Below are positions 5,187 to 22,197 of a stretch of DNA of 22,197 bases, piece after piece (positions within the stretch are counted from its first letter, which is position 1; the number at the start of each line of letters is the position of its first letter). The position numbers and the translations under genes are program-made. Source of the DNA: a virus. The notes under the pieces were generated by a model, which saw only the letters and a program-made list of their open reading frames with translations, made no database searches and had not been told where the DNA came from. Where the stretch lies: the IMG/VR virus record IMGVR_UViG_3300026521_000053, positions 1 to 22,197 of that record; one strand, 5' to 3'.

Positions 5187-5942
5187 ATGATGGATGTAAC
5201 TGAAATTGTATCTAAAGCAAAAAAAAGAAATATAACTCCTGAAGTTATAAAAGATGAAGATGGTTACTATAAAATATTATTTGGTAAATTTAATACTTTT
5301 AATAGAGGTGGTATCTTTTATAGAGTAAAAGATATCAATGCTATCTTGGGTCCTGGTAGTTTAGTGGCTAGGCGTATTGACGACGGTGTATTGATTAATG
5401 AAAAATGGCATCCAGAAACAGATGGTCTTAGTGTAGCTGAACTTAGAAAAGCGACTATTATGCTAGATAGCGAAAATGCTGTATCTACTACTAAAAGCAT
5501 AGAAATTGTAAATACAGGTAAATTTGAACCTGGTTTTAATTTACCTATTTATTATATTTATGGATGGGTAAAACCATCTGGTCCTAAAAAAGATGCAATT
5601 ATAGATTTATTAGACAACCCACACGCTAATGTACCATATAGTGTTAGATCCATGGTAAGTCAAAGTAGAGTAGGCAGTATTTTTATACGAGATGTATTAC
5701 TTGTATCTACATGGGATCATGTGCCAGAGAATGGTGTTAAAGGCGCTACACAATGGGGTGCTGCTGGTTTGGAAGGATTAAACACAGTAATAGATTATAA
5801 AGATGTTAAAGGAATGATAGCTGGTTTTGAATCAAATGAAAATATGTGTGAAGATGGAAAGTGTATAATAAACACTTTAGAAAAAACAATGAAAGATATA
5901 AATAAAGAAGATAGAATTCTTTATGAATGGGCAAATATTTAA
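5187..5942 (+). CDS. Unrecognised 251-residue protein
   Basis: No family recognised. It appears to be a folded soluble protein with Gly/Pro-rich turns and beta-strand character (GKFNTFNRGGIFYRV, LPIYYIYGWVKPSGP, VGSIFIRDVLLVSTWDH). A C-terminal tail holds a Cys pair (NMCEDGKC) and an acidic/basic helix. AAAGAGG lies just upstream; either ATG 5187 or the adjacent ATG 5190 could start translation, and 5190 has the better spacing. It is the last gene of the run that starts with RNAP beta, as it is followed by a strong hairpin. A structural or RNAP-associated role is possible from position only. Confidence 0.75.
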   Translation: MMDVTEIVSKAKKRNITPEVIKDEDGYYKILFGKFNTFNRGGIFYRVKDINAILGPGSLVARRIDDGVLINEKWHPETDGLSVAELRKATIMLDSENAVSTTKSIEIVNTGKFEPGFNLPIYYIYGWVKPSGPKKDAIIDLLDNPHANVPYSVRSMVSQSRVGSIFIRDVLLVSTWDHVPENGVKGATQWGAAGLEGLNTVIDYKDVKGMIAGFESNENMCEDGKCIINTLEKTMKDINKEDRILYEWANI

Positions 5943-6026: not shown

Positions 6027-6788
6027 ATGGAAAAGATTACAGTAATAAATAAAGAGGTGTTAAAAAAATTAAATACTTGTGAAGATGGTATACGTTTTTT
6101 TACACGCAATATAGGAGAATTATCTGTAGAGAAATTAAAACTAGTAAATGGTGATTATAAAAAATATGTGAGATGGTTAAAAAATGCTATTGATAATTAT
6201 AACGATAATCTTAATGAGTCACTTATAAAAGAGTTTGAGCACATAGATTTAGGAGATTGTAAATGGGGGGAATACACCAAAGATAAATGTGGTAATATAT
6301 TAAAATACAAAAATAGTGATGGCTACTGGAGTGATTATACTAGAGATAAAAATGGTAAAATATTGTCATTTAAAAATAGTAACGGTGTTTCATACGAATG
6401 TACGAGGGATAAACACGGTAACGTATTAACATATAAAGATAGTAGTGGTTATTCGTGCGAATACACCAGAGATAAATATGGTAATAAATTATCTTATAAA
6501 GACAATGAAGGTTACTGGACTGAATACACCAGAGATAAATATGGTAATGAATTAACACGTAAAGACAATGAAGGTCACTGGACTGAATACACTAGAGATA
6601 AATTTGGTAATGAACTAACATTTAAAAATAGTAATGGTGATTGGAGTGAATATACTAGATGTGAAATAGGTAATATACTGACTCATAAAGATAATAGTGG
6701 TGTGAATATAACATATGAATACGAGCATACTAAAGAGTATTTTAAAATGTATAAAAATGATAAGTTAATCTTAACAGTATTTAAATAA
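6027..6788 (+). CDS. RHS-like 21-residue repeat protein, 7 repeats (paralogue 1)
   Basis: Member of a three-gene family in this window. The 253 residues divide exactly into an 88-residue head (TVINKEVLKKL...CEDGIRFFTRN...), seven 21-residue repeats and an 18-residue tail (KEYFKMYKNDK...). The repeat has the pattern W/Y-x-E-Y-T-R-D-K-x-G-N-x-L-x-x-K-N/D-x-x-G, like a short RHS/YD or MORN-type beta-hairpin repeat, so a beta-solenoid or fibre-like fold is likely. The last repeat has drifted (TRCEIGNILTHK). No catalytic motif, signal peptide or membrane segment is visible. The ATG has an AAAGGA site. Role unknown; virion decoration, host interaction or immune evasion are possible but unsupported. 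Confidence 0.85.
   Translation: MEKITVINKEVLKKLNTCEDGIRFFTRNIGELSVEKLKLVNGDYKKYVRWLKNAIDNYNDNLNESLIKEFEHIDLGDCKWGEYTKDKCGNILKYKNSDGYWSDYTRDKNGKILSFKNSNGVSYECTRDKHGNVLTYKDSSGYSCEYTRDKYGNKLSYKDNEGYWTEYTRDKYGNELTRKDNEGHWTEYTRDKFGNELTFKNSNGDWSEYTRCEIGNILTHKDNSGVNITYEYEHTKEYFKMYKNDKLILTVFK
6291..6731 (+). repeat. Seven tandem 63-bp coding repeats
   Basis: Codon 89 onward of paralogue 1 is seven 63-bp units, each starting at a Gly-Asn/Lys-x-Leu step. Units are diverged. The stretch 6309-6397 is identical to 14040-14128 in paralogue 3. Confidence 0.85.
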
Positions 6789-8318: not shown

Positions 8319-8510
8319 ATGAAAAAAGTAAAGATAGCTTATGACACGTTCATAAAGAAAGCTAAAGAGGTTAACGGTGATTTATGTAAGTATCCTGGCG
8401 AGGATACGTTTAACAAATATCAGAATGAACATTTTAGAGTACCAATTATATGTCCAGTGCATGGAGAGTTTTTACAAAACCCAAGAATGCATGCATATAA
8501 TAAAATTTAA
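8319..8510 (+). pseudogene. Truncated homing-endonuclease-type ORF inside intron 1
   Basis: 63 residues. The pattern Y-x-x-F-I-x-K-A-K-x-V-N-G-D, then VPIICPVHGEFLQNP, is the short DNA-binding module often found in phage homing endonucleases and intron-encoded proteins (FIxKAxxVHGDKYDYS...IxCPxHGxFxQxPxxH). In intact proteins the module continues with a G-x-G-C-P-x-C step and a nuclease domain. Here a TAA follows MHAYNKI and neither other frame continues the motif, so the gene is an eroded remnant without a visible nuclease domain. The start is clear, with GAGGAGG four bases upstream. It may still make a small DNA-binding peptide, but it should not be able to mobilise the intron alone. Confidence 0.7.
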
Positions 8511-9091
8511 ACCTACCTCAAAACACAACTACAAATGATGTTAAAGAATATTTAACATTTAAATAATTACTATATATAGTAGAATGGGTCCTTCATACGG
8601 TGACGTATGTCGAAGAATCTTTCTAATAAAGAGATGTATTATTAATAGCATCTCACAGGGACTCTTAAAGCTTAAAGATACTACTTAATAGTTGGAAACA
8701 ATTATTAATACCGCATTCATAATGGAGATATGTGGCATAGTGACAACTCTTTAAGATAGCATGCAGTAGCATGTGTTATATGAAATATAAATACACCTAG
8801 TCTTTCTAACCAAAATGATAGTAGATATTTATAGATTATGTAACGTAGAGAATCTGTAGCGAAGTACCTTAAACAGTGAAAACTATCTAACATAGTTAGA
8901 GTGTATGCGCTCAACGACTATCCCGCCAGGGAGTAGGGCTCAAGTGAGTGGATGTCGATCCTTAAATCGAAACGGAAGAGGTCTCTTTAATATGGTATTA
9001 TAGAGATCATGATATAGTCTAGCCTGTAGTGAAAGCTATAGAAGTTCATGGGAGAACTGGTATGGTGTAACGAACCATATTGACTGTTGCG

Positions 9092-9102
9092 TTGATGGTG
9101 AT
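9092..9102 (+). CDS. RNAP beta' micro-exon 2 (11 nt) encoding F-D-G-D
   Basis: TTGATGGTGAT between the two introns. Joined to the T of exon 1 it completes Phe (TTT) and then reads GAT GGT GAT, so it supplies two of the three aspartates of the DFDGD magnesium site. It is preceded by G9091 (last base of intron 1) and ends in T9102, which suits a group I 5' splice site. Without splicing, the frame would reach a stop at AAA CAA TAA. Only this exact placement restores N-G-D-F-D-G-D-E-M-N in frame. Confidence 0.8.
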
Positions 9103-9583
9103 AAACAATAATTTTAAATTATTAAATGTCCGTTATAGAAGAAATTCTATAATGAAAACTTTCTAATTGACGGGGACGCCGTAAAGATGTGTGCACTAAC
9201 CAGACCGCAGTAATGTGAGGATGAAGAGTCTGGGGCTTAGCTAACTACTAAGGTATAGTAAAAGACATACATATGGTATTGAGTTACCAGCATTGATGAT
9301 AGTATATAGGAGTACAATATCCTGTAAAAACATAACATGGTGTAATTGGCAATCCGCAGCGAAGTATCCCTAGTGGATATGTGTTCAACGACCAAGGGTT
9401 TACCACCCTGTAGGGCTCAAGTGAGTGGGTGTAGAATCCCTTAAATCGAAATGTTAGTGTCCTAGCTTACTATAACGATATTGTAGTCGTGTAAGAAGGA
9501 ATTGATATGGTCTCGACTTCTAGAGGAAACCTAGAGAAGTTCATAAGAGAACTGCATGGATTAACGACCTATGTGAAGACACG
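9103..9583 (+). ncRNA. Group I intron 2 (td-like, 481 nt) in the RNAP beta' gene
   Basis: Second group I intron, 11 nt downstream of the first and related to it. AATCCGCAGCGAAGTA (9351-9366) differs from intron 1 at two positions. TAGGGCTCAAGTGAGTGG (9411-9428) is identical to 8934-8951. P7 is GACCA (9390-9394) with TGGTC (9508-9512), a compensatory change from GACTA/TAGTC. P9 is CTTCTAG/CTAGAGAAG. The final hairpin GCATGG-ATTAACGA-CCTATGT resembles the td 3' end. The intron ends in G9583. It has no ORF. The first 180 nt form extra hairpins (for example TTATAGAA-GAAA-TTCTATAA and CCAGAC...GTCTGG). A likely guide is GTTACCA (9283-9289), which pairs with exon TGGTGAT and places a U-G pair at the splice site. 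Confidence 0.88.
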
Positions 9584-9802
9584 GAAATGAACTGTATATT
9601 ACTTATAGATAACTGGATGGTGGATAAAGCTAAAAACTTATCACCACACCATAATATCGTAGATGTAGGATATTATAAAATAAATAAAAATTTATACTTG
9701 TCTCCTACTACAGTATTAAACATAAGTAATTACATAATGAGTGATGATGAAGAAGAAGACCCTGAGTGTCCTATCTATCAAGAACTTTTGGATTTGAAAT
9801 AA
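9584..9802 (+). CDS. RNAP beta'-like subunit, N-terminal part: exon 3
   Basis: Starts with GAA ATG AAC (E-M-N), completing the NGDFDGDEMN signature when joined to the upstream exons, and continues CILLIDNWMVDKAKNLSPHH to a TAA at 9800-9802. The ATG at 9587 could be misread as a gene start, but it has no ribosome site and the protein resembles the stretch after DFDGD in beta'. The subunit ends about 70 residues after the catalytic motif with an acidic tail (MSDDEEEDPE), consistent with a beta' split after the active site. The beta' C-terminal part is not in this window. Total spliced CDS is 1216 + 11 + 219 = 1446 nt, an exact 482 codons including the stop. Confidence 0.88.
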   Translation, partial: EMNCILLIDNWMVDKAKNLSPHHNIVDVGYYKINKNLYLSPTTVLNISNYIMSDDEEEDPECPIYQELLDLK

Positions 9803-9810
9803 TTTTTGTT

Positions 9811-9828
9811 TATATATTATTAATATGA
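9811..9828 (+). promoter_or_regulatory. Phage promoter-like AT element, copy 3 (before a gene-free stretch)
   Basis: TATATATTATTAATATGA. Unlike the other copies it has no start codon 19 to 28 bases downstream, which supports transcription of a non-coding RNA from here. Confidence 0.55.
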
Positions 9829-10088
9829 AGGGTGTAGATTAAAAAGAAAAATAATTTACTGAAAATTGGTATATCTATACTTGCAATTTTATTGCTATGA
9901 TTTGTAGTGTGTATCATCCCATACTTGGGGCCTTGCATATAGATAACCAAACCCTCAGATCCGTTTTGTGTTTACTATAGCGTGTATGTTTATACATGCT
10001 AATGATCTCTGCTATAGCACTTCCTATGCAACGCTGGGATCATTTTCTAAACATCCTAGGCCCTCTGTGGCCTTGTTGATGTTTTTTT
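9827..10088 (+). ncRNA. Putative structured non-coding RNA (about 260 nt), class unknown
   Basis: Gene-free stretch bounded by a promoter-like element and a terminator, visibly less AT-rich than its surroundings. Nested pairings build a long rod: ATCCCA (9916-9921) with TGGGAT (10035-10040), TTGCATA (9933-9939) with TATGCAA (10025-10031), CTATAGC (9975-9981) with GCTATAG (10011-10017), and an apical GTGTA/TACAT hairpin. The outline, with a closing stem, internal bubbles and an apical stem, recalls 6S-type RNAs but I cannot assign it. Alternative: a decayed small membrane-protein gene, since one frame from 9838 reads KNNLLKIGISILAILLL, then TGA, then FVVCIIPYLGPCI, but it has no ATG and TGA is a stop elsewhere here. 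Confidence 0.5.
10050..10088 (+). terminator. Rho-independent terminator of the putative RNA
   Basis: AACATC (10050-10055) with GATGTT (10078-10083) and inner AGGCC (10058-10062) with GGCCT (10069-10073), followed by seven T (10082-10088). Confidence 0.75.
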
Positions 10089-10122
10089 GTTTTGTGTGCT
10101 GTTAAAAACTTTGTAGATTACT

Positions 10123-10154
10123 GATATGACTGTGGATGCTGCCACAGTCATATC
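10123..10154 (+). terminator. Second perfect 13-bp hairpin in the same gap
   Basis: GATATGACTGTGG (10123-10135) pairs with CCACAGTCATATC (10142-10154); a T-rich tract (TCTCTATTTATTTTT) follows. It insulates the next promoter element 22 bases downstream. Confidence 0.7.
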
Positions 10155-10176
10155 TGTGTCTCTATTTATTTTTATA

Positions 10177-10194
10177 TACATATTATTAAGATAG
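10177..10194 (+). promoter_or_regulatory. Phage promoter-like AT element, copy 4
   Basis: TACATATTATTAAGATAG, 26 bases before the ATG at 10221. Two substitutions from the consensus. Confidence 0.5.
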
Positions 10195-10220
10195 TAAAAC
10201 AAAAGATAAAAGGATCTAAA

Positions 10221-11108
10221 ATGGATAAAATTACTGTAATAAATAAAGAGATATTAAAACAGTTAGGTGCATGTCAGGATGGCATAGATTTCTTTACTAG
10301 AAATATAGTAGAGATATCTATAGATAAATTAGACTTGGTAGATGGTGATTATGAGGGATATGTAGAGTGGTTAAGACACAGTATATCAAATTATAATTCT
10401 TGTAAAATTAAACCACCTGTAAAAGAGTTTGAACGTGTATATAATTTAGACGGTAGTTGGAAAGAAATTACTAGGGATAAATTTGGTTATATATTAAAAT
10501 ATAAAGACAGTACAGGTTTTTGGAAAGAATTTAATAGGGATAAATTTGGTTATGAACTATCTTATAAAGATAATACTCATGTGAAATACGAGTACACTAG
10601 AGATGAAGATGGTAACATATTAACGTATAAAAATAGTGATGGTGGTTGGTACGAATACACTAGAGATAGATTTGGTAATGAGCTATCTTATAAAGATAGT
10701 AGTGGTAATTGGAAAGAATTTACTAGGGATAAATTTGGTAATGAGCTATCTTATAAAGATAGTAGTGGTAATTGGAAAGAAATTACTAGGGATAAATTTG
10801 GTTATATATTAAAATATAGAGACAGTACAGGTTTTTCATACGAGTATACTAGAGATAAATATGGTAATGAATTATCTTATAAAAATAGTAATGGTAATTG
10901 GAGTGAGTATACTAGAGATGAAAATGGTAATGAATTACATTATAAAAATAGTAGTGGTAATTGGAGTGAGTATACTAGAGATGAAAATGGTAACATATTA
11001 ACGTATAAAAATAGTGATGGTGAATATATAACATATAAATACGAGCATACTAAGGAATACTTTAAAATGTATAAAAATGATAATTTAATCTTAACAGTAT
11101 TTAAATAA
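10221..11108 (+). CDS. RHS-like 21-residue repeat protein, 9 repeats (paralogue 2)
   Basis: Longest of the three paralogues at 295 residues: the same 88-residue head (TVINKEILKQLGACQDGIDFFTRN), nine 21-residue repeats and the same 18-residue tail ending LILTVFK. The repeat keeps E-Y/F-T-R-D-K/E-x-G-N/Y-x-L-x-Y-K-D/N-S-x-G. Repeats 4 and 5 are almost identical at the DNA level (63-bp period from 10674), a sign of recent duplication. Repeats 7-9 use DENGN variants shared with paralogue 3. The ATG has an AAAAGGA site eight bases upstream. No enzyme motif, signal peptide or membrane segment. It is followed by the 142-residue unknown after 11 bases, so the two are probably co-transcribed. Function unknown. 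Confidence 0.85.
   Translation: MDKITVINKEILKQLGACQDGIDFFTRNIVEISIDKLDLVDGDYEGYVEWLRHSISNYNSCKIKPPVKEFERVYNLDGSWKEITRDKFGYILKYKDSTGFWKEFNRDKFGYELSYKDNTHVKYEYTRDEDGNILTYKNSDGGWYEYTRDRFGNELSYKDSSGNWKEFTRDKFGNELSYKDSSGNWKEITRDKFGYILKYRDSTGFSYEYTRDKYGNELSYKNSNGNWSEYTRDENGNELHYKNSSGNWSEYTRDENGNILTYKNSDGEYITYKYEHTKEYFKMYKNDNLILTVFK
10485..11051 (+). repeat. Nine tandem 63-bp coding repeats
   Basis: Starts at codon 89, as in the other two paralogues. Units beginning at 10674 and 10737 are near-identical. 10911-10991 is identical to 14133-14213 in paralogue 3. Confidence 0.85.
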
Positions 11109-12348: not shown

Positions 12349-12373
12349 GTGTATCTATATTATTTATTTTTTT
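12329..12373 (+). terminator. Strong terminator between convergent genes
   Basis: ATATAGATACACC (12329-12341) pairs perfectly with GGTGTATCTATAT (12348-12360), followed by TATTTATTTTTTT. It terminates the deaminase operon; the same hairpin sits just after the stop of the minus-strand gene but has no T-run in that direction. Confidence 0.8.
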
Positions 12374-13620
12374 AATGCTTTTATGTATATATAAAGAATA
12401 AACATAATAGTAGTAGTGGATAGTATCCATTTAGTTTTTCTACCTGTAGTAATCATAGCTAAATAATAAATATACTTTTTAGCTTCTTTCATATCTTTAT
12501 TTTTTACTTTACTACTAGACCAATAATTTTTAAGTAATAAGATACTCTTAGGTAAATTATTTACATCTGTAATATTTAAGTTTAATCTATTTAAATAATC
12601 AAAGCTTAATATTAAAATATCTTTTAATAATTCGTTATAAGGATCTTTATCATTTTTATATTTTTTAATAGTCACTTTTAATTTATTATGTAATTGATCT
12701 TCACATACATTGTTAATCATGCTAGTTAATATATCCTTATTTGTATTTGGAAACATTTTATCGATTACAATAATTATATCAGTGTCTATAAAATCATTTT
12801 TATTGTATTTTATATTTTGTATTTTATTTATATAATTAAAGGCATCATTATTTACTTCTTTTACTTGTTTCTCATTAGCTTCACCACCTATAAAAGTAGA
12901 GTCTTGTTGTTTGATAATTTCTTTTTCTTCTTTAACTTCTACTAATACACCATATATAGCTATTAGTAAAGATCTATTTTTTGTTTGTATATCTGATATA
13001 ATTCTAGTAGAATCTTCAGTAGTAAATCTTCTTAACCTTTTATTATTAGGATTGTGTTTATCTAGTATAGTTTCTACTCTATAATTAAATACTTCTCCCC
13101 AACTATGTTTCTTTTTAATAATAAATTTATGAGATAAGTGTTCATATACAGTAGTTGCTATATTATTATCAACTTTATAATTAAAATATCTAAAATACAA
13201 ACTACTAAACATTCTATACTGCATAATTAACATTGTCTCTTTAACTATTTTTTCTTTAAAATCTTTAGAAGTAACATTACTATTATAAGCATCTGCAGCT
13301 GAATATGTGAGTATGTTATAAATTACATTACTGGTTACTTTAAAAGATTTATTTATATCTTTTACCTTATAAAACTCTTTTTGTATATCTTTAAAACCTG
13401 GTAAATTATAAACATCGTTAGCTAATTTATCATCGTCATTCTCGCTAAATCTAATAGTATGTGCTCCTACTAAATTACTACCTAAAAATTCTATATATTC
13501 ATCACTTTTATTTATCCACGATAATCTAAAATTTCTAATTCTATTTAAAAAACCACTATCTATATTTATGTTTAATTCACTTTTAAAAAAACTTTTAACA
13601 TCTTTATATTTTTTATCCAT
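12364..13620 (-). CDS. Unrecognised 418-residue protein with C-terminal membrane anchor
   Basis: No family recognised. Long, Lys/Asn/Ile-rich and mainly helical, with a charged C-terminal third. The last 20 or so residues (KWILSTTTIMFILYIYIKAL) form one hydrophobic segment after a basic stretch (GRKTK), which looks like a tail anchor with the bulk in the cytoplasm. The ATG at 13620 is preceded on its strand by an AAAAGGG site. It is the only minus-strand gene between 1 and 17067, convergent with the deaminase operon and divergent from the third repeat gene. A short AT-rich gap (13621-13713) holds its promoter, but no copy of the 18-base element is visible on that strand. Confidence 0.75.
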   Translation of the reverse strand: MDKKYKDVKSFFKSELNINIDSGFLNRIRNFRLSWINKSDEYIEFLGSNLVGAHTIRFSENDDDKLANDVYNLPGFKDIQKEFYKVKDINKSFKVTSNVIYNILTYSAADAYNSNVTSKDFKEKIVKETMLIMQYRMFSSLYFRYFNYKVDNNIATTVYEHLSHKFIIKKKHSWGEVFNYRVETILDKHNPNNKRLRRFTTEDSTRIISDIQTKNRSLLIAIYGVLVEVKEEKEIIKQQDSTFIGGEANEKQVKEVNNDAFNYINKIQNIKYNKNDFIDTDIIIVIDKMFPNTNKDILTSMINNVCEDQLHNKLKVTIKKYKNDKDPYNELLKDILILSFDYLNRLNLNITDVNNLPKSILLLKNYWSSSKVKNKDMKEAKKYIYYLAMITTGRKTKWILSTTTIMFILYIYIKALKK

Positions 13621-13757: not shown

Positions 13758-14456
13758 ATGAAAAAGATTACGGTAGTAAATAAAGAGGTGTTAAAAAAAC
13801 TGAAAGCATGTGAAGACGGTATACGTTTTTTTGTACGTAATATAGGAGAATTACCTGTAGATAAATTAGACTTGGTAGAAGGTGATTATAAACATTATGT
13901 GGAATGGTTAAAAAATGCTGTTACTGAATATAATAACAAACCGCATAAACCACCTGTAAAAGAGTTTGAACGTGTATATAATTTAGATGGTAGTTGGTTT
14001 GAATTTACTAGGGATAAATTTGGTTATACTTTAACATATAAAAATAGTGATGGCTACTGGAGTGATTATACTAGAGATAAAAATGGTAAAATATTGTCAT
14101 TTAAAAATAGTAACGGTGTTTCATACGAGTACACTAGAGATGAAAATGGTAATGAATTACATTATAAAAATAGTAGTGGTAATTGGAGTGAGTATACTAG
14201 AGATGAAAATGGTGCTGTGTTAACGTATAAAAATAGTGATGATTTTTCATACGAGTACACTAGAGATAAATATGGTAATGAATTAACACGTAAAGACAAT
14301 GAAGGTTATTGGTGCGAATACACTAGAGATAAATTTGGTAATGAATTAACATTTAAAAATAGTAATGGTGATTGGAGTGAATATAAATATGAACACACTA
14401 AGGAATATTTTAAGATGTACGAAAACGATAAACTGATATTAACTGTAATTAAATAA
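13758..14456 (+). CDS. RHS-like 21-residue repeat protein, 6 repeats (paralogue 3, mosaic)
   Basis: Shortest of the three paralogues: 232 residues = 88 + 6 x 21 + 18. The head (TVVNKEVLKKLKACEDGIRFFVRN) begins like paralogue 1, while the segment before the repeats (PPVKEFERVYNLDGSW) matches paralogue 2. The repeats are a patchwork: 14040-14128 is identical to paralogue 1 (89 bp) and 14133-14213 identical to paralogue 2 (81 bp), so recombination between copies has built this gene. One repeat has lost its Gly (NSDDFSYE). Good AAAAGGA site and promoter element upstream. A small helical gene follows 13 bases downstream. Function unknown; the repeat fold is probably a beta-hairpin stack. Confidence 0.85.
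   Translation: MKKITVVNKEVLKKLKACEDGIRFFVRNIGELPVDKLDLVEGDYKHYVEWLKNAVTEYNNKPHKPPVKEFERVYNLDGSWFEFTRDKFGYTLTYKNSDGYWSDYTRDKNGKILSFKNSNGVSYEYTRDENGNELHYKNSSGNWSEYTRDENGAVLTYKNSDDFSYEYTRDKYGNELTRKDNEGYWCEYTRDKFGNELTFKNSNGDWSEYKYEHTKEYFKMYENDKLILTVIK
14022..14399 (+). repeat. Six tandem 63-bp coding repeats
   Basis: Starts at codon 89 of paralogue 3. Contains two blocks (89 bp and 81 bp) identical to different paralogues. Confidence 0.85.
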
Positions 14457-16191: not shown

Positions 16192-16548
16192 ATGTTAAGT
16201 TTGGATAATAAAGCTGCTATAATTGCAGTGGTAAACAAATTAATAAATTTTAAATTCATGATAGTTGAATTTAAAATATTAAATAAAGTATTGCATATAG
16301 ATGCAATACTAAGAAATAAATTGATATCTTTAGATATCGATCTAGAAACATTGACAAAGAAATATACCCTATTAAATATATTGGAGTATATTTCTGATAA
16401 TGAATACTTTATTTCAAAAAAAGAAATAGAGTATGATGAGTTGTTAAACGTGTTTTATGTAATGATGCCCTTGTTAATAAATATAATTAATACTAATGAT
16501 ATTATTAAGGGAATTAATAAAACATACGATAGGATGAGATATGCTTAA
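16192..16548 (+). CDS. Unrecognised 118-residue protein upstream of the lytic transglycosylase
   Basis: No family recognised. The ATG at 16192 is preferred over an in-frame TTG at 16180, whose bases include the GGAG ribosome site used by the ATG. Mostly helical and Ile/Leu/Asn-rich. A hydrophobic stretch near the C-terminus (LLNVFYVMMPLLINIINT) might be a membrane helix, but it is weak. It overlaps the lytic transglycosylase by eight bases, so the two are translationally coupled. A lysis-accessory (holin-like) role is possible from position only and not supported by topology. Confidence 0.65.
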   Translation: MLSLDNKAAIIAVVNKLINFKFMIVEFKILNKVLHIDAILRNKLISLDIDLETLTKKYTLLNILEYISDNEYFISKKEIEYDELLNVFYVMMPLLINIINTNDIIKGINKTYDRMRYA

Positions 16549-17056
16549 ACTATTAATTACATTACTAATGGCAAGCAATGTTTTTGCTGGTGTTGTATCG
16601 GTAAAAACATATTTAAAAATTCTCGATAGAATGTCTTATCGTCAAGAATTAGTTTTAAAAGAGATAGATGAAACATGTAAACCGTACGATTTATCTCTCA
16701 CATGTGTAGCTATATCTTTAAAGGAGTCTCAACTGGGTAGGTGGGCATTAAACCCCACCACTGGTGATTATGGTGTCATGCATATAAACTTAAAAACATT
16801 TATGCGTGACAACAAATTAAACGAATCGTATTATAATAAATTATATTACGCTTCTTTATTAACACGTGATGATAATTTTAATATTAATGCTGGTATTAAA
16901 AATTTATTACATTGGAAAAAAAAACACCATTGTAATTGGGAAAAAATGGTAGGTAGTTACAATGCTGGTAATGTGCCTAATAAAGAATATGCTAAAGATG
17001 TATTAAATGCATTAAGAGCATACAAGCGATGGAAGAAAGAACATGTAGATAGATAG
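16541..17056 (+). CDS. Exported lytic transglycosylase (SLT family), probable endolysin or virion muralytic enzyme
   Basis: Predicted to cleave the glycan strand of peptidoglycan with 1,6-anhydro-muramyl product. The 171-residue protein opens with a short signal peptide (MLKLLITLLMASNVFA, likely cut before G17). The SLT catalytic block follows: ISLKESQLGRWALNP with catalytic E62, GDYGVMHIN (75-83) corresponding to the family's G-x-x-Q block, and GSYNAGN (138-144) as the substrate-groove motif. Length fits a single SLT domain. The Sec-type signal would send it to the periplasm without a holin, unlike the phiKZ endolysin gp144, which to my knowledge has no signal peptide. An AGGATG site precedes the ATG. 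It is convergent with TerL, and its stop lies in a shared hairpin. Confidence 0.85.
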   Translation: MLKLLITLLMASNVFAGVVSVKTYLKILDRMSYRQELVLKEIDETCKPYDLSLTCVAISLKESQLGRWALNPTTGDYGVMHINLKTFMRDNKLNESYYNKLYYASLLTRDDNFNINAGIKNLLHWKKKHHCNWEKMVGSYNAGNVPNKEYAKDVLNALRAYKRWKKEHVDR

Positions 17057-19311: not shown

Positions 19312-21129
19312 ATGAATGAAAGTATTACGTATAGTCTGGTAGAAAATTTAAAAAACCAGAATATAATATTAAGAGATGCCAAAGATGAAATGATGTCATA
19401 TGTGGGTGAATACACTGACAATAAATTATCTAAAAAAATAATGGCTAGCAGACATAATGATATGGAAGATATAGATCTATATTATAATACTAAACTAGAT
19501 GATATTTTAAATTTAGATTTTCTAGGTAAAATGAAAGATGTAAAAGTATCTTCAGAATGTATTTTAAAACATATGGAAAATGACGATAAAATATTGTTAT
19601 TGGTAGACTTTGATGTAGACGGTGTGACTAGTGGTGCGTTAGGCAAGTTAATGTTTAATAACGTATTAGAATATGATAATGTAGAAGTAATTGTAAATAA
19701 GAAAACTAATGGATATGGCATAAATGATAAATTAGTAGATGAAGCTATTGAATTACATAAAAGTTTTGATTTTAAATTAATAATAACAGCAGATCACGGA
19801 TCTAATAATAGAGATGGTATTAATCGTTTAATTAATTCTTTAAACATTGATGTAATAGTGACAGACCACCATTTAATAGAACCTAGCAAAAGCCCTCAAA
19901 ATGTAGTAGGTTTTGTAAATCCACAAAGAGATGATTGTGATATGAGTAATAAAATATCTGGAGCTACTGTATTATATTTTTTATTAACATATGCATTCTT
20001 ATATAAAAATAGAAACAAAGTAATACCTAATGATACGCTAAATACATTATACTATTATTTAACTTATGTGGGTATGACTATTATATCTGATATGATGGAC
20101 ATGAGAAATTATATTAATAGAAAAATAGTAATAAAAGCTTTAGCTATTTTAAATAGTAAACGAATAAAACATAATCCTTTTTGGACTACTGTCATGCATC
20201 ATATAGGTAATAGTTATTTTGTGGATGAAACTACATTAAGTTTTAATTTAAACCCTAAACTAAATACTCCTGGTAGAATTAAAAATCCTAGATTAAGTTA
20301 TGAGACAATGGTAGCTAATACTGAAGGTGAGTGTGAGATGTTCTTTCAAGAATTAGATGCTCTTAATGACAAGCGTAAAGATATGCAAGTAAAAGCTGTT
20401 AAGGCTAAAGCAGAACTAGAATATAAAAATGAATTACTTTATATAGGACTATCTAAAGAAGCTAATAATATACAGGGTATTTTAGCTAACAAAAAAATGT
20501 TTGATGATAAATTTAGAGCAGCTATTATTTTCGCTCCTACTAAAGATAAAAACATAATAGCTGGTAGTGGAAGACTAAATGATGAGCATGCTAATTTAAA
20601 AGAGATGATAGATATAATTAGTAAAGATGTAAATTATATAATTAATCATGGTGGACACGCCGGTGCTATTGGTATACAGATTAGACAAGATGAAAATAAT
20701 CTAGAAGATTTGTTTAATAGATTATCTAAAGAAATGGATAAAACAGATATAGTGAAAGATGAAATTTATTTTGTAGATGAAATTATATATAGTAATAAAA
20801 AATTAATTACTTCTCTATATGATGTAAAGGAATGTGGTCCATATGGTCACAATTATCCTAAACCTACCTTTGTATCTGATTTTGTAATAAAGAGTTTTAG
20901 AGTCTTTAAAAAACCTAATGGCACATATTTATCTATGGATGTTAAATTAAGTGTAAATAGTAATTTTAGTGTAAATGCTTTTTATACTTTAAAAGCATTT
21001 GAACAAGATGAAATATTAAATAACCTCTATGAAGGTAAAAATATAAGATTAATTTATACTATAGGCATAAACACATTTAAAGATATAAATAAGACGTCCT
21101 TAAATGTAATAAAGGTAATTATACTGTAG
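19312..21129 (+). CDS. RecJ-like DHH-family single-strand DNA exonuclease
   Basis: Predicted metal-dependent 5'-3' single-strand exonuclease. All DHH signatures are present: VDFDVDG (D99, D101, D103), TADHGSNN (D161, H162), TDHH (D185-H187), NPQRDD...SGA (203-218) and ISDMMDM (D260). The C-terminal DHHA1 motif GGHAGAIG is at 447-454. At 605 residues it is close to bacterial RecJ (E. coli, 577). The ATG has an AAAGGA site. The 111-base gap to divergent TerL holds no clear copy of the 18-base element. In the phage it probably acts in recombination-dependent replication or degradation of host DNA. An extra N-terminal helical region (1-90) precedes the first motif. Confidence 0.9.
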   Translation: MNESITYSLVENLKNQNIILRDAKDEMMSYVGEYTDNKLSKKIMASRHNDMEDIDLYYNTKLDDILNLDFLGKMKDVKVSSECILKHMENDDKILLLVDFDVDGVTSGALGKLMFNNVLEYDNVEVIVNKKTNGYGINDKLVDEAIELHKSFDFKLIITADHGSNNRDGINRLINSLNIDVIVTDHHLIEPSKSPQNVVGFVNPQRDDCDMSNKISGATVLYFLLTYAFLYKNRNKVIPNDTLNTLYYYLTYVGMTIISDMMDMRNYINRKIVIKALAILNSKRIKHNPFWTTVMHHIGNSYFVDETTLSFNLNPKLNTPGRIKNPRLSYETMVANTEGECEMFFQELDALNDKRKDMQVKAVKAKAELEYKNELLYIGLSKEANNIQGILANKKMFDDKFRAAIIFAPTKDKNIIAGSGRLNDEHANLKEMIDIISKDVNYIINHGGHAGAIGIQIRQDENNLEDLFNRLSKEMDKTDIVKDEIYFVDEIIYSNKKLITSLYDVKECGPYGHNYPKPTFVSDFVIKSFRVFKKPNGTYLSMDVKLSVNSNFSVNAFYTLKAFEQDEILNNLYEGKNIRLIYTIGINTFKDINKTSLNVIKVIIL

Positions 21130-21152
21130 GTGGCAAAAGCCACCTACAGTAT
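21121..21152 (+). terminator. 14-bp perfect hairpin over the RecJ-like stop codon
   Basis: ATACTGTAGGTGGC (21121-21134) pairs with GCCACCTACAGTAT (21139-21152) across AAAA; the TAG stop (21127-21129) is in the left arm. No T-run, so possibly a 3' stabiliser or weak terminator. Confidence 0.65.
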
Positions 21153-21198
21153 GTACTGTTTATCTTAAAATGATTAAAGAAAAACTAAGGATTATAAT

Positions 21199-22197
21199 AT
21201 GTTAAATTTTGAAAATGTTTTAAGTGTAAAAGAATTATCGCCATATGAAAAGATAATGGCAGGTAATGAAAACTTATTAAAAGTACAACTCAATGATAAA
21301 ATTGTAGATGACTTAAGATCATATGTAAAATCATTAAGAGAAATTAAAAATCCTGAAAGTAAAGATAATATAAAAATTTTAAAAAGAATAAGCAGTAGTT
21401 TACATAAAAGATTTGGTGTTCCTGTTAAAATAACTAAAACATATGGCGGTTATTATTCTTTACCTGTAGCATATACAAATAATGTAATAGAATACTACAT
21501 GACAACAAATGAGAAAAACACTTATAAACCTAATGATAAGTTAGATGCTTTAATAATTGACACTGAAAATGTGTATGTGGAAAATTATAATCTTAAAAAG
21601 AAAGCTACTATAAATATAGACTTTGATATATTGTTAGATGAAAAATATACTGTAGATGAAAATGTAGCTATAATACTACATGAGATGGGTCATATATTTA
21701 CATTTTTATCAAATACCAGTAGAATGGTATACAACACGACATTGTTAATAGATGCATTTTCATATGCGACTAGTGGTGAAAATAATAAATATAAAAAAAT
21801 TGTTACCAATGAATTTGGTGTAAAAGATCCAGATAATAAAAAAGAAGTAATAGTTAAAGGTACTAAAAAATTTACAGATGATGTAGTTAGACTAGGTAGT
21901 GTATTTCAAACATCTACAGATGCTGAAAACTTAGCTGATTCTTTTGTAGTTACTTTTGGGTTAGGCGACAGTCTTGCTTCTGGATTAAATAAGTTAATTA
22001 AAGATATTGATGGTACTACCAAACAATTAGAAGTGTTATTTGTTTTTAATTTTATAGCAGTTATTATAGTTGTGTTGCAAAATTTAATACGAGGATATAT
22101 ATTAATATTAACGCCTATGTTTTTTGTACATGTAATTATTTATTTAATAATTATCTTAATTCGCATAAGTTTAATAAATATACTATTTGATTCACTC
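21199..22197 (+). CDS. Membrane-anchored HExxH zinc metallopeptidase (3' end outside window)
   Basis: An open frame of 333 codons runs off the window without a stop. Residues 161-165 are HEMGH (IILHEMGHIF), the zinc metallopeptidase signature. AENLADSFV at 242-250 gives a likely third zinc ligand, E243, in the E-x-x-A-D-x-F pattern seen in M48-like peptidases. The catalytic half is followed by strong hydrophobic segments at about 278-296 and 300-330, so the enzyme would be held in a membrane with its active site before the anchor. An AAGGA site precedes ATG 21199. Substrate unknown: prohead maturation, host membrane proteins or a virion role are all open. Confidence 0.8.
   Translation, partial: MLNFENVLSVKELSPYEKIMAGNENLLKVQLNDKIVDDLRSYVKSLREIKNPESKDNIKILKRISSSLHKRFGVPVKITKTYGGYYSLPVAYTNNVIEYYMTTNEKNTYKPNDKLDALIIDTENVYVENYNLKKKATINIDFDILLDEKYTVDENVAIILHEMGHIFTFLSNTSRMVYNTTLLIDAFSYATSGENNKYKKIVTNEFGVKDPDNKKEVIVKGTKKFTDDVVRLGSVFQTSTDAENLADSFVVTFGLGDSLASGLNKLIKDIDGTTKQLEVLFVFNFIAVIIVVLQNLIRGYILILTPMFFVHVIIYLIIILIRISLINILFDSL

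Follow-up and report, generated by a model that had tools for sequence, protein, structure and literature searches.

Head proteins of the giant phages SPN3US and phiKZ are processed by prohead proteases, that of SPN3US being reported to cut after A-x-E (PMC5694885) and that of phiKZ after S/A/G-x-E (PMC13282480). According to the 2017 paper on SPN3US, eight cleaved head proteins were all cut at A-x-E and the cleavage was credited to the S80 protease gp245, the self-trimming of which was reported at residue 203; gp45 is given among the cleaved proteins, with a propeptide of 20 residues, and ejection was inferred by the authors for gp47, the gene of which lies two downstream of gp45 (PMC5694885). 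phiKZ gp84 (PHIKZ084) and SPN3US gp45 are members of the family phrog_2767; the PHIKZ084 record bears the note 'structural head protein', and further annotations in the family are 'putative virion structural protein', 'peptidase' and 'hypothetical protein'. The protein AMR59696.1 (SEGD1_047), 100% identical to SPN3US gp45, was named by Iyer et al. 2021 (PMC7824862) as an additional zincin-like metallopeptidase, uncharacterised but conserved in the phages of the phiKZ group, and the enzyme class of the family, a zincin-like metallopeptidase of phiKZ-type phages, is already known. The gp84 homologue of Pseudomonas phage PA1C (L012:3711-4957) seems to be split between two annotated genes, a short one for the initial piece and another for the remainder.

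The window is the whole stretch of DNA that was analysed (22,197 nucleotides; IMG/VR record IMGVR_UViG_3300026521_000053). At its 3' end an open reading frame of 333 aa (21199–22197, plus strand) starts with ATG and runs stop-free up to the edge, where the gene is truncated. Single-sequence scans of IMG/VR returned a twin of the window, contig IMGVR_UViG_3300028534_000030 (G001; 59,220 bp), and no other relative; identity of the two was 99.79% over 6,998 bp and 99.35% over 8,828 bp. The complete gene in the twin (L002:6001-8193) encodes 730 aa, the window ORF being its N-terminal 333 residues with one difference (99.7% identity). The 3' end, absent from the window and from the preliminary description made on it, was thereby obtained and was found to encode a kinase-like C-terminal domain; all statements on the C-terminal part refer to the twin contig. 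On that contig a short gene (L002:9305-9802), the third one after the peptidase-kinase gene, contains a GGDEF diguanylate-cyclase motif (PF00990, 8.5e-11); its product is possibly a c-di-GMP enzyme of a jumbo phage.

The window ORF is probably (roughly 0.6) the front of a head polyprotein, 730 residues long, from a phiKZ-type phage that encodes chimallin; the polyprotein would be cut by the S80 protease and ejected. The most economical account of the chain divides it into a propeptide (residues 1–24), a zinc peptidase of M48/Ste24-like type that includes two membrane helices and ends in a helical tail (ca. 25–471) and a protein-kinase-like domain (ca. 472–730). With regard to the phage type, a homologue of the nuclear-shell protein chimallin (phrog_4795, E 1.6e-11 to 2.9e-36) was found in each of G001–G005; of the 10 records searched 8 matched phrog_4795, whereas G007 and the window record, both of which are fragments, did not. 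The nuclear-shell phage context supposed in the preliminary description agrees with the homologue encoded by the twin contig. The window itself encodes RNA polymerase beta-type subunits.

With phrog_2767 the window ORF gave E 6.4e-22 and the full-length twin protein E 6e-23, residues 27–467 of the latter aligning with positions 17–439 of 442 of the family. When 50,697 phage records were searched with the window ORF by tblastn, 113 matched at E ≤ 0.1, of which none reached 80% coverage. From an alignment-based scan of IMG/VR, in which two peptide patterns built on the zinc motifs were used and introduce a bias, the best 80 of 93 relatives were taken further and 47 were picked for the family alignment. 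HExxH was encoded by 79 of these best 80 loci (exception: L042), a count that is to be read with the motif-built patterns in mind; the tblastn and phrog_2767 matches of the window ORF are independent of these patterns. In the window protein the zinc-binding/catalytic motif reads HEMGH (residues 161–165; 21679–21693, plus strand) and is followed by ENLADSF (residues 243–249; 21925–21945, plus strand), where E243 is the likely third zinc ligand and is accompanied by D247; H161, E162, G164, H165, E243 and D247 are invariant in all 47 aligned members. HEMGH, the downstream E-x-x-A-D and two hydrophobic helices, all pointed out earlier in the 333-aa ORF, are present. The accompanying opinion that this is an unusual phage protein did not hold, an HExxH membrane protein of phrog_2767 being widespread among phiKZ-like phages. 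Homology to a non-peptidase virion protein, which had been said to speak against a peptidase, exists in name, many homologues being called 'virion structural protein', but not in substance: they have the same zinc motif.

The M48-like layout, likewise proposed beforehand, was supported as that of a zincin with Ste24-type arrangement and membrane helices (profile, Pfam, VIA and hydropathy). In the search of the family profile against PDB sequences the best matches were ZMPSTE24 (3.4e-4, 3.5e-4, 3.5e-4 and 0.012) and Ste24p (0.0094), designed helical proteins scoring beside them (0.0058 and 0.02); two of the ZMPSTE24 alignments match around HExxH and around E-x-x-A-D. Among the Pfam families M48 matched most often (12 of the 47 members at E ≤ 0.1; best value 2.1e-4), with an unrelated family scoring 2.0e-4 in one member in the same search; the window protein gave no M48 match at E 0.1. 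The structure model of residues 1–467 (mean pLDDT 74) gave Ste24p/ZMPSTE24 at VIA ranks 1–5 with Z of 7.8 to 6.6, the safe level being 8 (best match: Ste24p, Z 7.8, rmsd 7.1, 177 aligned). Foldseek of this model against PDB returned nothing under E 1, probably because long helices dominate the model. M48/Ste24-like is thus the best-supported kinship, short of proven membership. The protein resembles the Ste24p/ZMPSTE24 branch of M48 in HExxH, in the downstream E-x-x-A-D and in helices after the third ligand, and differs from it in belonging to a phage head-protein family. Matches of the window ORF to SprT-like (0.034), M91 (0.2) and metallo_LGF (0.013) in Pfam/NCBIfam were below the cut-offs and were set aside as general zincin resemblance.

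Hydrophobic segments at residues 279–297 and 312–330 (mean KD > 2.6, computed on the full-length twin protein) form a predicted membrane-spanning region (22033–22188, plus strand); in the structure model a single long helix spans residues 256–329. A hydrophobic 19-mer after the third ligand is found in 44 of the 47 members, and such a segment behind the zinc site is ill-suited to the capsid lumen. It thereby weighs against an ordinary family member, the peptidase of which would be a second maturation enzyme inside the prohead beside the S80 protease, with an incidental kinase-like tail. Maturation cleavage was indeed proposed for this zincin by Iyer et al. 2021 (PMC7824862), and the record of phiKZ gp84 describes a head protein; however, all eight cut SPN3US head proteins of the 2017 paper have A-x-E sites credited to gp245 (PMC5694885), and the kinase-like domain was retained in five genomes, so that a maturation enzyme of this kind is regarded as unlikely.

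That domain (residues ca. 472–730) is without counterpart in ten compared relatives (337–447 aa). Five fusions were found in IMG/VR: L014 (the window twin, 730 aa), L015 (703 aa), L016 (671 aa), L019 (696 aa) and L024 (1162 aa). The last one (L024:4527-8012; IMGVR_UViG_3300026521_000161) consists of two complete HExxH/E-x-x-A-D modules followed by the kinase-like domain. The motifs D-x-H-x-[GD]-N and D-P occur in all five proteins, with D686, H688, N691, D704 and P705 invariant. The T7-type protein kinase family phrog_15752 matches four of the five (best 2.5e-7; the window's protein 5.5e-4), and hhalign against the T7-like kinase of Pectobacterium phage PcCB251 gave E 1.6e-6 over 31 columns (terminase control: 0.49). 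The model of the domain (mean pLDDT 71.6; model residues 1–51 under 50) had 25 Foldseek matches in BFVD at E ≤ 0.001: nine named protein kinases (2.8e-6 to 4.7e-4), one NAT_SF and 15 uncharacterised or unnamed proteins, one uncharacterised protein being the best overall (2.9e-7). In PDB, 47 of 50 among the Foldseek matches listed were kinases or kinase-fold proteins by name, the matches being weak (best E 0.013), and VIA against solved kinases was weak as well (Z at most 5.9). No kinase was found among PDB sequences with the kinase-like profile, and no kinase family among Pfam families. A BN_H helical domain (9.7e-4) was recorded in one of the five members, and the kinase-like profile matched Elongator 6 among PDB sequences; such single weak matches of AT-rich helical sequence were taken as chance.

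The fold predicted by the model is protein-kinase-like, of the phage gp0.7 type. The domain shares with T7 gp0.7-type kinases (phrog_15752) the catalytic loop D-L-H-x-G-N, the D-P motif and a similar predicted fold. Kinases of the gp0.7 type are free early proteins, whereas the present domain follows a peptidase that belongs to a family of head proteins. By eye, no beta3 Lys can be recognised in it, T occupying the VAIK-like position, and an invariant K lies in the putative alpha-C helix. With these two features the domain may be a pseudokinase. As a query, the kinase-like part gave one phage record (E 0.8), and a profile scan of IMG/VR with it gave the five fusions and nothing further, both searches being restricted by divergence as well as by the choice of peptide patterns.

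The predicted capsid-targeting propeptide of 24 residues (21199–21270, plus strand) ends in G-N-E. Its E24 aligns with E20 of SPN3US gp45, and in the first 40 residues of gp45 the only S/A/G-x-E ends at residue 20, where it aligns with G-N-E24. The corresponding column has E in 44 of 47 members and S/A/G-x-E in 40 of 47; the others have D-x-E (3/47), T-x-E (1/47) or no aligned E (3/47). The likely processing enzyme, an S80 prohead protease, is encoded in the window (5187–5942, plus strand; PF20034, 4.8e-38), and four such proteases were found in eight records (window, G002, G003 and G006). The three that were read have G-x-E at 215–225, C-terminal of the Pfam domain (19–208 in the window protein), roughly at the position of gp245 self-trimming, and an additional G-x-E at 196–199; G002 has a third one as well. 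These sites are consistent with G-x-E as the motif of the window phage, and with a polyprotein, and are no proof.

Within the 730 aa G-x-E occurs twice, at residue 24 and at residue 471, i.e., at the peptidase/kinase junction; for background, eight other proteins of the window contain 8 in a total of 3,992 residues. Residue 471 coincides with the C-terminal end of the canonical family proteins. All 6 module junctions in the five fused proteins (two of them in L024) have a G-x-E, and each of the five also keeps the N-terminal prohead-protease motif. Since one or two extra G-x-E, besides the N-site and the junctions, occur in each of the remaining four fused proteins, the motif alone is no proof of a site. 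These extra motifs would suit an uncut chain, i.e., a bifunctional 730-aa membrane protein in which the kinase-like domain regulates or positions the peptidase and G-x-E 471 is a linker; the co-linear fusion in 5 of 5 proteins and the unclear beta3 Lys, as in regulatory pseudokinases, point in the same direction. An uncut chain is nevertheless considered quite unlikely, the junction motif being invariant among proteins that are 27–30% identical to the window's protein and being repeated, as a copy of the N-terminal motif, at each of the two junctions in L024, the double-peptidase form of 1162 aa.

In the preferred reading of a cut polyprotein, the protein resembles the known S80 substrates (SPN3US gps 45, 47, 50, 53, 54 and others), in which S/A/G-x-E follows an N-terminal propeptide (PMC5694885), and differs from these substrates of giant phages in the extra site between two enzyme-like modules. 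In the open-licence papers searched no described case of one chain yielding two enzymes was found. Compared with phiKZ gp84 and SPN3US gp45, the homology over residues 27–467, the zinc residues, the hydrophobic segment, the conserved helical tail and the N-terminal processing motif are common; the kinase-like domain is added, the gene lies behind a RecJ-like gene and not at the polymerase/baseplate locus, and a second, zinc-less copy remains at the old locus of four of the five fusion-carrying genomes.

In all five genomes a RecJ-like gene (in the window 19312–21129, plus strand) precedes the peptidase-kinase gene, and a phrog_2921 gene (in the window 12364–13620, minus strand) is a further conserved neighbour; in the window phage a terminase-containing stretch lies between the two. 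G002 has an intervening 274-aa ORF on the minus strand, and the RecJ match of G005 is in two pieces. Directly 3' of the RecJ-like gene of the window, a terminator-like inverted repeat (ctgtaggtggc/gccacctacag, 21120–21155) was noted by eye.

The search with the family profile revealed a second family copy in G001, G002, G004 and G005. In all four this copy is at the canonical gp84 locus, beside a gp85-sized gene (152–163 aa; no sequence match to gp85 itself) followed by an opposite-strand homologue of the phiKZ gp87 baseplate protein. At the HExxH position these copies read KEIGV, FEVGK, KEIGY and KQVGV, both histidines being lost in 4 of 4; the zinc-less copy of the twin contig (L112:13612-15006) has lost the phrog_2767 match at 0.01, as has L118:6593-8086. 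As the canonical locus of the twin contig holds a zinc-less copy and the window gene lies behind the RecJ-like gene, the window gene is a paralogue and not the orthologue at the canonical gp84 locus. In G003 (186 kb) the fused copy alone was found: no second copy was returned by the family profile or by that of the zinc-less copies, and no family member was present among the ORFs inspected behind its baseplate gene. A scan with the zinc-less copies gave no contigs beyond the four known. The gp87 baseplate homologue of G002 (L117:4092-6846) is split into ORFs of 245 and 637 aa with TAA within the match.

In a 51-row tree the peptidase parts of the fusions cluster (93/73; 97% of bootstraps) and lie beside those phages' own canonical copies, with which L027 is grouped (96/89); because the branches are long, the support is moderate. 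L027, a copy at the canonical locus with a baseplate homologue as neighbour (E 5e-119), still encodes HExxH, and its 53-kb contig showed no second copy. In G007 each of the two loci holds an HExxH copy, neither with the kinase-like domain, and G007 is a possible intermediate. Zinc loss is hence not a clade-wide rule, and our reading is that it occurred more than once or after the fusion. The relocated copy presumably took over the enzymatic job. Relocation from the head-gene locus would also suit a protein made in the infected cell that acts on the host envelope or on nuclear-shell-associated proteins, as would the membrane helices. This non-virion role is held to be very improbable, in view of the prohead-protease motif kept at the N-terminus of 5 of 5 fused proteins and of the head proteins in the family (PHIKZ084 note; for gp45, PMC5694885).

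The head polyprotein would operate as follows. The 730-residue chain would be packed into the prohead and cleaved there by the S80 prohead protease after G-N-E24 and G-N-E471, giving the mature membrane peptidase and the kinase-like protein; both would be ejected along with the DNA, as is suggested by likeness to the SPN3US head protein gp47. The peptidase might then insert into the host inner membrane or into the membrane of an early-infection vesicle, and the kinase-like part might act on host or phage proteins. Action in the membrane after ejection is pointed to by the hydrophobic segments and the Ste24 kinship. For a wider group the proposal would be that in some nucleus-forming jumbo phages an S80-cut polyprotein packaged in the head releases a kinase and a Ste24-like membrane protease, of which one phage would have two. 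Ejected as infection begins, these enzymes would act at the inner membrane of the host or at the early-infection vesicle, and the ancestral gp84-locus copy would by now be a zinc-less structural paralogue; this is put at slightly less than even odds.

Other features of the window were recorded as follows. Three paralogous tandem-repeat genes ('EYTRDKxGNxLxYKxSxG'-like; 6027–6788, 10221–11108 and 13758–14456) cross-match stretches of the twin contig with 74–90% DNA identity; we take the look of the repeats to be Rhs/YD-like. A region of ca. 1.9 kb behind an RNA polymerase subunit gene (8319–10220) has low coding density and higher GC (0.33–0.35) and contains a short endonuclease-like ORF (phrog_681, E 0.001). 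An SLT-type lytic transglycosylase (16541–17056; PF01464, 1.7e-8) has a signal-peptide-like start by eye. Rfam gave no match in the window at the gathering score.

The family was known already; no prior description of the fusion, the junction site or the zinc-less paralogue turned up in the open-licence papers searched. The early-infection roles of many phiKZ-type head proteins, as a vesicle forms around the incoming DNA, are referred to as an open question (PMC13282480), and a membrane metalloprotease common to phiKZ-type phages is a concrete candidate for an actor at this stage. The natural rearrangement (duplication, relocation, kinase fusion and zinc loss of the old copy) separates the enzymatic from the structural role. 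If the proposal is true, a virion polyprotein carrying a protease and a kinase would be a new way of loading phage effectors.
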